Shown here: in pieces, positions 1,849 to 63,739 of the stretch
How the letters are laid out: each line of letters begins with the position of its first letter
Position numbering within the stretch: position 1 is the first letter of the stretch
Assembly: GCF_013170705.1 (NCBI RefSeq)
Contig: NZ_CP033334.1
Location: 2,395,501-2,459,500, forward strand
Length of the DNA: 64,000 nt
Reading direction: 5' to 3'
Origin: Mesorhizobium loti
GTDB taxonomy: Bacteria; Pseudomonadota; Alphaproteobacteria; Rhizobiales; Rhizobiaceae
The notes under the pieces: model-generated
Databases searched by the model: none
What the model was told of the DNA's origin: nothing
What the model saw: only the letters and a program-made list of their open reading frames with translations
Made by a program: the position numbers and the translations under genes

Positions 1849-2910
1849 GTGTCGAACTATCCGCTTTCCTACAAATTGTCCTGGCTGCCGCGTTTCCTGA
1901 AACCGTCGCTTGGCGGTGGCGCCGATGGGTTTGCGCCAGCGTCGGGAACGCTCATGGAGCCGCTACCCGCACAGACCGTGCGGCTGGCCTTCGTCGGCGA
2001 CATCTCGGCGGTGGCCAACCGCGGTGCGCCGGACTGCGACCCGGCGATCAAGGCGCTGCTTGGCGGCGCCGACCTTGTGATCGGCAATTGCGAAAGCCCT
2101 GTCGTGGACAGGCCAAGCGCGGTGCTGGGCACCAGGCTCGGCACGCACCACGCGATGAGCGAGCGCTTTCTGGCCGAGGCGCTCGCCGCGACCGGTCTTG
2201 CGCGCGAAAGGCTCGTGCTTTCGCTGGCCAACAATCATGTGCTCGACCAGGGCGTCGCGGGTTTCGACGAGACGGTGGCGGCACTGAAGCGGCTCGGCAT
2301 CCGCACCATCGGCCTGGCCGCCAATGGCCCGGTGCAGATGGTCAAGGTGGGGCCGCTGGATGTCGGCCTGGCGGCCTTCACACTGTGGCGCAATGCAGAT
2401 GAGAGCCTGTTTGCCGGGCGCGTTTCGATGGCCAGCGATCCAGAAAGCTGGCCGCGCGTCGATCTTCTCTGCGCGGTGCCGCATTGGGACTGGGAGTTCC
2501 GGCATTTTCCGCGCGCCGGGACGCGGGCTTTGGCCAGGCGCCTGGCCGGGCAGGGCGTCGGGCTGATCGCCGGCCATCATGCGCATGTGGTGCAGCCGGT
2601 GGAACGAATGCGCGACGCGATCGTCGCCTACGGGCTCGGCGATTTCCTTGGCACCGCGCTTGCCCGCCAGCGGTGGCCGGGGCGCATTGGCGGGATTTTC
2701 GTCGTCGATGTCAGCGCCGATGCGGGGACGCGTGGTGCTGTAGCGGCTTACCGGATGCATCCGTTCGTGCGGCTGCGGGGCAAGGGCCATGAGCGGCTGG
2801 TGCCGGTCGAGGGGTTGGACGGTGGGATGCGGGGAAAGTTCGAGCAGCGGCTGAGGGCGATCTTTCCTTCTCCCCTTGTGGGAGAAGGTGTCGCCGAAGG
2901 CGACGGATGA
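1849..2910 (+). CDS. CapA/PgsA-like (poly-gamma-glutamate capsule family) metallophosphoesterase-fold protein
   Basis: The core contains FVGDIS near the N-terminus, then GNCESP, SLANNHVLDQG and GHHAHVVQP. These are the metal-binding blocks of the CapA family, a calcineurin-like fold tied to capsule or poly-gamma-glutamate production. The start is GTG 1849, giving VSNYPLSYKLSWLPRF; ATG 1954, with GGGA just upstream, is a good alternative. There is no clear signal peptide. The last dozen residues and the TGA stop lie inside the palindromic repeat at 2866-3010, so the C-terminus appears to have been replaced or extended by the repeat. Biological substrate is unknown. Confidence 0.75.
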   Translation: MSNYPLSYKLSWLPRFLKPSLGGGADGFAPASGTLMEPLPAQTVRLAFVGDISAVANRGAPDCDPAIKALLGGADLVIGNCESPVVDRPSAVLGTRLGTHHAMSERFLAEALAATGLARERLVLSLANNHVLDQGVAGFDETVAALKRLGIRTIGLAANGPVQMVKVGPLDVGLAAFTLWRNADESLFAGRVSMASDPESWPRVDLLCAVPHWDWEFRHFPRAGTRALARRLAGQGVGLIAGHHAHVVQPVERMRDAIVAYGLGDFLGTALARQRWPGRIGGIFVVDVSADAGTRGAVAAYRMHPFVRLRGKGHERLVPVEGLDGGMRGKFEQRLRAIFPSPLVGEGVAEGDG

Positions 2911-3010
2911 GGGGTGCTCCAGGGAATGCCAGCGTCTCACTCCGCTGGAACACCCCTCATCCGTCTCGGCGCTGACGCGCCGATCCACCTTCTCCCACAA
3001 GGGGAGAAGG
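2866..3010. repeat. RIME-like palindrome, two inverted units without cargo
   Basis: The left unit, 2866-2925, begins CCTTCTCCCCTTGTGGGAG and ends GATGAGGGGTGCTCCAG. The right unit, 2946-3010, is the inverted counterpart, beginning TGGAACACCCCTCATCCG and ending CAAGGGGAGAAGG. About 20 bp separate them. Each unit folds into a constant hairpin (CTTCTCCC/GGGAGAAG) and a variable hairpin. The same units in the same orientation bracket the DUF559 gene at 62972-63589. The left unit supplies the stop codon of the CapA-like gene. Confidence 0.85.
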
Positions 3011-62956: not shown

Positions 62957-62971
62957 GGGTGGTGCGGCCTC

Positions 62972-63589
62972 CCTTCTCCCCTTGTGGGAGAAGGTGGCCT
63001 CGCGAAGCGAGGTCGGATGAGGGGTGTTCCAGTGAACGCCAACCTCACTTATTGTTTCGCAATGCCACACCATCCTGTCCTGCCAGAAAAGAGACGTTTT
63101 GCCCGAACCTTGCGGCACGAGCCGACCGAGACCGAGGACAAGCTTAGGCATGAGTTGCGCGGTCGAAAACTGGATCGGATCAAGTTCCGCCGCCAAGTGC
63201 CGATTGGACGTTTCATTGCTGACTTTCTGTGCGCGGAGGCAATGCTGATCGTTGAGATAGACGGTAGCCAGCATGCAGACTCTGTCCACGATCGTGAGCG
63301 GAGCGCCGAGCTGAAGTTGCGAGGGTTCCGCGTGTTACGCTTCTGGAATGATGATGTGTTGCGAGAACTGGATTCTGTCTGTGACACCATCATCGCCTAT
63401 GTTCGGGACACAAGTTTGCAGCCATGGCGCTGATGGAGGTGCCTTCTCTCGCTGAGAAGAAAACGAGGCGGCAGTAGTTCTGCTTCGTCTCCGACATTGA
63501 AGGGGTTTTGAACAGGCGCATCGCCAAGCTGGAACACCCCTCATCCGACCGAGCTTCGCTCGGCCACCTTCTCCCACAAGGGGAGAAGG
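62972..63589. mobile_element. DUF559 cassette bounded by inverted RIME-like repeats
   Basis: The left end (62972-63032) begins CCTTCTCCCCTTGTGGGAG and ends GGATGAGGGGTGTTCCAG. The right end (63529-63589) is its near-exact inverse, beginning CTGGAACACCCCTCATCC. They differ mainly in the inner hairpin, CCTCGCGAAGCGAGG against CCGAGCTTCGCTCGG. A DUF559 gene is the only cargo. The pair without cargo is at 2866-3010. Mobility is inferred from this; no target-site duplication was confirmed. Confidence 0.6.
63062..63433 (+). CDS. DUF559 (Vsr-like) endonuclease-fold protein
   Basis: The 123-residue protein has RKLDRIKFRRQVPIGRFIAD and LIVEIDGSQH (Glu65, Asp67, Gln70 region), then LKLRGFRVLRFWNDDVL. 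These are the PD-(D/E)xK-like residues of DUF559, related to the very-short-patch repair endonuclease fold. ATG 63062 is chosen; an in-frame ATG at 63017 lies inside the left repeat with GAGG upstream. Codons are more A/T-rich than in neighbours. Target DNA is unknown. Confidence 0.85.
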   Translation: MPHHPVLPEKRRFARTLRHEPTETEDKLRHELRGRKLDRIKFRRQVPIGRFIADFLCAEAMLIVEIDGSQHADSVHDRERSAELKLRGFRVLRFWNDDVLRELDSVCDTIIAYVRDTSLQPWR

Positions 63590-63739
63590 GGGCCTTACCT
63601 GCTCGCCTTGCGCACGGTTTCGGTACCATTGATCGTGCGCTTCACATCGCTGGTGAAGCTCCCGCTCAGGTCGGCCGGAACATCGGAGGGTGCGCCGCAT
63701 TGATAGTGGACGGTTTGCGACCCTCTTCATGGATTCGAA

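Follow-up and report, generated by a model that had tools for sequence, protein, structure and literature searches.

Why a stand-alone gene of the DUF559 family should lie between two almost identical inverted repeats is the question raised by this locus of Mesorhizobium loti. In the window (the whole 64,000-nucleotide stretch of DNA analysed here), an inverted-repeat search placed the arms at 62971-63032 and 63529-63590, each 62 nt long, 94% complementary and with 496 nt between them. The gene (63062-63433 on the forward strand, stop codon included) encodes a protein of 123 aa that matches PF04480 (DUF559) with an E-value of 4.8e-34 and has a Vsr-like or homing-endonuclease-like fold (3hrl, 3r3p), bearing out the near-identical inverted ends around a DUF559 gene that a preliminary description had reported. 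Each arm is a unit in which an outer pyrimidine-rich palindrome is followed by an inner hairpin, after which comes the end GGATGAGGGGTG. In the left unit (62971-63032, forward strand) these parts are the palindrome CCTTCTCCC-N5-GGGAGAAGG, the hairpin GGCCTCGCGAAGCGAGGTC and the end GGATGAGGGGTGTTCCAG; the right unit (63529-63590) is an inverted copy on the reverse strand, and its inner stem differs from that of the left unit on both stem sides, with pairing preserved. Both were delimited as inverted repeats and by folding with RNA parameters, which predicts that the units form strong hairpins. A perfect stem of at least 5 was present in 56 of 78 distinct inner segments, as opposed to 4 of 78 after one shuffle each; the 78 derive from 279 units of the fetched loci, a number that is not one of independent units because some places were fetched repeatedly. 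A subterminal segment, GCGCATCGCCAAG (63516-63528), adjoins the right unit, and its GCCAAG followed by the CTGGA of the unit recurs in gene-less copies.

The palindrome CTTCTCCCCTTGTGGGAGAAGGT is present four times in the window, at 2867 and 62973 on the forward strand and at 2987 and 63566 on the reverse strand, where 100 shuffles gave an expectation of 0.00; three mismatches were allowed in this search and none was needed. Near the left end of the window, at 2866-3010, is a REPIN-like, gene-less pair of 145 nt that belongs to the same family as the window element (type A), with inner arms 22 nt apart and a single long hairpin predicted with RNA parameters. The preliminary description had regarded this pair as the same two units that bound the gene, which is true in part: the outer palindrome is common to both pairs, as is the GATGAGGGG end, whereas the inner hairpins differ. 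Across the genome, a palindrome pattern of exact spacing had 31 forward and 32 reverse matches, distributed over 18 places (14 pairs and 4 single matches), and looser spacing raised the matches to 45 forward and 44 reverse. The start-to-start distance was 119-163 bp in 13 of the 14 pairs and 595 bp in the DUF559 gene element. The anticipated occurrence of small gene-less copies throughout the genome is supported. The motif GCCAAGCTG[GT]A, as found beside the right end of the gene, occurs in 8 of the 17 gene-less places of this genome, and CCAG[TG]GAA[CT][AG]CC, as found beside its left end, in 6 others, so that 14 of 17 keep one or other of these motifs from the inner ends of the gene element. 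The most natural reading is therefore that the gene-bearing and gene-less forms represent a single element, with its gene in one case and lacking it in the other, as had been proposed. The pair at 2866-3010 also extends into an open frame, 1570-2910, whose C-terminus (PSPLVGEGVAEGDG) is encoded by window positions 2866-2910; by eye, a relative that lacks the pair (L275) has a stop soon past the equivalent point of this frame.

The structure model of the DUF559 protein (mean pLDDT 82.9) gave a predicted fold for which NGO0050 (3hrl) and a homing endonuclease, I-Bth0305I (3r3p), were found as matches, along with Vsr as a weak one. I-Bth0305I is the closest functionally named match, both by fold (E 1.1e-4, TM 0.74 by target length) and with support from a sequence profile (E 3.6e-5). 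Twelve columns, including D54, D67, H71 and D77, are invariant among 42 homologues, and E65 is nearly so. The median dN/dS of 0.11 over 205 pairs indicates that the protein is maintained by purifying selection. This set drew on 58 relatives, L005-L062, less six with a match other than a 369-nt stretch from residue 1; 52 of its 53 genes had no internal stop, an outcome that the choice of 369-nt matches favours. Frame changes are found in several lower-ranked relatives, with match lengths indivisible by three in L063, L065, L066 and L071.

This genome has three stand-alone DUF559 genes, each located between inverted palindromic units, and the units belong to three families; the least similar arms are those of L001 (24 nt, 83%), and a fourth DUF559 match, L004, is a domain inside a 1069-codon frame. 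When relatives found by similarity were added to these three, arms scored at least 25 in 60 of 81 loci compared with 18 of 841 displaced placements (83 loci, less L008 and L076, which were dropped at contig edges). Since the 83 loci fall into 29 synteny clusters, many are orthologous and not independent insertions. From the order Rhizobiales, 120 genomes were drawn evenly; 54 of them had a DUF559 match, and the draw yielded 84 fetched loci of at least 77 bits outside the genome of the window, with G066:C2:49 and G066:C25:49 excluded at contig ends; weaker matches, fused domains and L004 were left out of the order-wide set. The preliminary description had named a lack of enrichment as grounds for refutation, but in this set DUF559 genes were strongly concentrated between inverted units: 57 of 87 DUF559 loci reached an arm score of 25, versus 28 of 805 displaced windows, and 32 of 87 reached 40, versus 0 of 805. 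Thirty of the 87 scored under 25 and 24 under 20. Arms paired from different loci of different genomes reached 25 in 33 of 584 pairings and 40 in 3 of 584. As a control, ParE genes of the 120-genome draw had arms of at least 25 at 1 of 30 loci and of at least 30 at 0 of 30 (Fisher 7e-10 versus DUF559). At least one arm-bounded DUF559 locus was found in 31 of 42 genomes order-wide. Among the matches listed, one locus per genome, inverted arms were also present at 15 of 25 DUF559 loci from outside the order but within the class (13 of 20 plus 2 of 5) and at 11 of 23 from outside the class but within the phylum (5 of 8 plus 6 of 15). A single repeat family for all DUF559 genes, likened to the RIME of rhizobia, was ruled out in the process, as the loci carry many unit families; RIME are likewise intergenic repeats, according to the available sections of PMC2573895, a likeness drawn at the level of description.

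The units also appear to belong to their own locus. In 47 of 65 loci the two arms match each other better than those of any paralogue in the same genome, where 20 would be expected, though 23 of 188 pairings between arms of different paralogues in one genome match as well. Across genomes, the relation between protein and arm similarity is weak (Mantel rho 0.198, equalled or exceeded in 1 of 500 permutations). A pyrimidine-rich unit, defined by a signature composed after the arms were seen, lies on both sides of 55 of 135 DUF559 loci (28 of 87 in the order, 17 of 25 in other orders and 10 of 23 in other classes), 0 of 50 GIY-YIG loci and 0 of 30 ParE loci. A stand-alone DUF559 gene is present in 15 of 16 genomes with at least 10 forward type-A palindromes versus 27 of 104 others (p 2.5e-7, relatedness ignored), and a DUF559 locus with a type-A palindrome within 400 bp in 10 of the 16 palindrome-rich genomes versus 3 of the 104, relatedness again being ignored. 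The six palindrome-rich genomes in which no fetched DUF559 locus has a type-A palindrome beside it are G005, G009, G024, G086, G096 and G103, and G005 has zero DUF559 matches. In G096, which has 73 forward type-A palindrome matches, a DUF559 match at C29:44440-44753 is in two pieces, possibly a recently broken gene.

Comparison of orthologous sites, as suggested in the preliminary description, revealed sites in relatives that are free of the element: that of the window element lacks it in G126, G128, G144 and G153, and some other relatives are without the pair at 2866-3010, while pairs 90-99% identical to the latter are found elsewhere in genomes of the genus, among the matches listed. A target duplication, for which this comparison was also meant to look, was not seen at three sites (the window element, the 2866-3010 pair and the site of locus L016), at which the ends are approximate and not base-exact. 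The L016 site, at which 98 of 99 genomes had some match to the query, varied in content; in 30 loci whose states were assigned by eye, it holds the gene in 13, a gene-less type-A pair in 2 (L403 and L410), pairs of other families in 7, a single palindrome in 3 and no repeat in 2, with 3 unclassed. For 8 of the 30 (L398-L400, L407, L409, L410, L413 and L414) the left flank aligned partly, and placement relies mainly on the right flank. These states are compatible with homing, that is, with the gene having been copied into a gene-less allele. Within the genus, L401, L404, L407, L408, L409, L413 and L414 carry different unit-pair families at this intergenic site, which may be a hot spot for unit pairs.

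Among known systems, a close parallel is with REP-RAYT systems (REPtrons, REPINs; see also PMC3116915), in which, in the available sections of PMC2817692 and PMC3733652, an enzyme gene is situated between two inverted palindromic units. Here too, two such units flank an enzyme gene (57 of 87 loci order-wide), many copies of the unit are dispersed through the genome, often as pairs, and several enzyme-unit families coexist within one genome. The enzyme is a different one: the partner of bacterial REPs described in the available part of PMC3733652 is the RAYT transposase, of the Y1/HUH tyrosine type, whereas that of the present element is PF04480. Membership in the RAYT systems was rejected, as Y1_Tnp (PF01797) has 0 matches in this genome (one 6.87-Mb contig), and, by eye, type-A units were not seen to carry the GT(A/G)G head of a REP-RAYT unit. 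Type-A units also resemble CGTC REPs, which form head-to-head dimers and have a CGTC tag, an AT-starting stem and a CCA tail as far as the available sections of PMC3733652 describe them: by eye, several type-A inner hairpins read outwards as CGTC-stem-TCCA, but their stems do not start with AT, and the units have an outer pyrimidine-rich palindrome in addition. I-Bth0305I shares fold and sequence profile with the DUF559 protein, but the description of 3r3p is that of a mobile intron protein, whereas the DUF559 gene sits within a pair of intergenic palindromes. The Caulobacter protein VsrA has the same Pfam domain and, in the available sections of PMC12907096, a proposed role in mismatch repair, with harm appearing when a cytosine methyltransferase is missing; the earlier statement that DUF559 has no agreed role thus holds broadly, but with this proposal now to be set beside it. 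VsrA was studied as a protein of the mismatch-repair type, and the terms palindrom-, homing and repetitive are absent from the text of PMC12907096. In the open-licence literature covered by our searches, with preprints outside the scope, we found no earlier report of a link between DUF559 and palindromic repeats.

Set beside the observed architecture and enrichment, the matching of arms within loci, the co-occurrence of repeat copy number and gene, the occupancy states of sites and the selection on the protein, the explanation that we consider probable is that of a REP-associated nuclease element, composed of a stand-alone DUF559 gene and two head-to-head palindromic units, and accompanied by a related population of gene-less unit pairs. 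Its arrangement is best read as a counterpart of REP-RAYT that uses an unrelated enzyme, in which case the gene-less pairs would relate to the element as REPINs do to RAYT elements. Because the pairing of gene and repeat recurs in many other bacteria, DUF559 is a candidate driver of these palindromic repeats. Against this explanation count the 30 of 87 loci with arm scores under 25, the weak relation between protein and arm similarity, the six palindrome-rich genomes in which no fetched DUF559 locus has a type-A palindrome beside it, the matching arms of some paralogues, the orthology of many loci and the frame changes in lower-ranked relatives. We suspect that the unit of its own element is what the enzyme recognises, perhaps as a hairpin exposed in single-stranded DNA or in nearby duplex, and that it may cut or nick there; repair from a copy elsewhere would then carry the pair of units, at times together with the gene, into further intergenic locations. 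In our view, the I-Bth0305I-like fold, together with the lack of a visible target duplication, makes such a homing-like cut-and-copy route more likely than classical transposition. A stricter form of homing, in which the repeats predate the gene, a parasite that invades gene-less pairs by cutting their spacer, is a sub-case of the REP-associated nuclease element and does not exclude it; we regard it as conceivable but doubtful. A homing endonuclease as the closest functionally named fold, the inner-end motifs in 14 of 17 gene-less places and the gene-less type-A pairs seen at the L016 site in two of the 30 loci (L410, with its partial left flank, and L403) are in keeping with it, but loss of the gene would yield both forms equally, and the many DUF559 genes with their own unit families suggest joint descent.

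Two further explanations were considered. DUF559 could be a host repair enzyme of the VSP type, like VsrA, and the palindromes terminators or REPs that have collected in intergenic space. The strong predicted hairpins of the units, the weak fold match to Vsr and the harm done by VsrA, itself a DUF559 protein, without a cytosine methyltransferase (in the available sections of PMC12907096) would all fit, but repeats that merely gather between genes sit poorly with arms at 1 of 30 ParE loci of the same draw, with arms that are specific to their locus, with a palindrome abundance that tracks the presence of DUF559, and with a single site whose content ranges, between genomes, from the gene to a gene-less pair to nothing; we consider this explanation unlikely. 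Alternatively, the gene and its arms might be passive cargo, mobilised in trans through the palindromes by some unrelated transposase, as happens with MITEs. This we judge improbable: purifying selection on the protein, the repeated finding that DUF559 is the gene beside matching arms and a genome without a Y1 transposase (PF01797) all speak against it, even though inverted ends with gene-less derivatives are MITE-like and the activity of DUF559 in this setting is itself deduced from fold and context.

A comparable arrangement may exist for GIY-YIG nucleases. Their genes had been intended as a negative control and were dropped in favour of ParE when inverted arms appeared at 14 of 30 and 7 of 20 loci, that is, at 21 of 50 with a score of at least 25 (30 loci plus 20 added, open frames under 300 codons). 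Canonical CGTC REPs lie on both sides of 11 of 50 GIY-YIG, 1 of 135 DUF559 and 0 of 30 ParE loci; CGTC-type REPs or close variants are inverted around the GIY-YIG genes of L282, L288, L290, L302, L304, L370, L374, L376, L381, L382 and L386, an example being TCGTCATTCCGGCGAAAGCCGGAATCCAG at L282. The solitary GIY-YIG gene of the M. loti genome itself (L388) does not have CGTC-type REPs on both sides. By eye, a second GIY-YIG subtype (L292, L294, L296 and L300) is found beside a different unit family, CCTCATCCTGAGGTGC..CGAAGGAT. CGTC REPs occur mostly in alphaproteobacteria, apparently without a dedicated transposase, in the available part of a 2013 survey (PMC3733652). We therefore put forward, tentatively and at somewhat short of even chances, that two unrelated nuclease folds each drive a superfamily of palindromic repeats, DUF559/Vsr-like proteins the pyrimidine-rich units with GAGGG/TGGGG ends and GIY-YIG proteins the CGTC REPs.

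In conclusion, position, copy number and specificity link DUF559, a family that takes its name from the lack of a known function, to a class of palindromic units; CGTC REPs are linked in turn to another nuclease family, GIY-YIG. DUF559 thereby gains a concrete function that can be tested, and a named DNA on which to test it. Should the proposal for both folds be true, the GIY-YIG nuclease would be the missing enzyme of the CGTC REPs, and REPs would be spread by homing-type nucleases too, and not by RAYT transposases alone.
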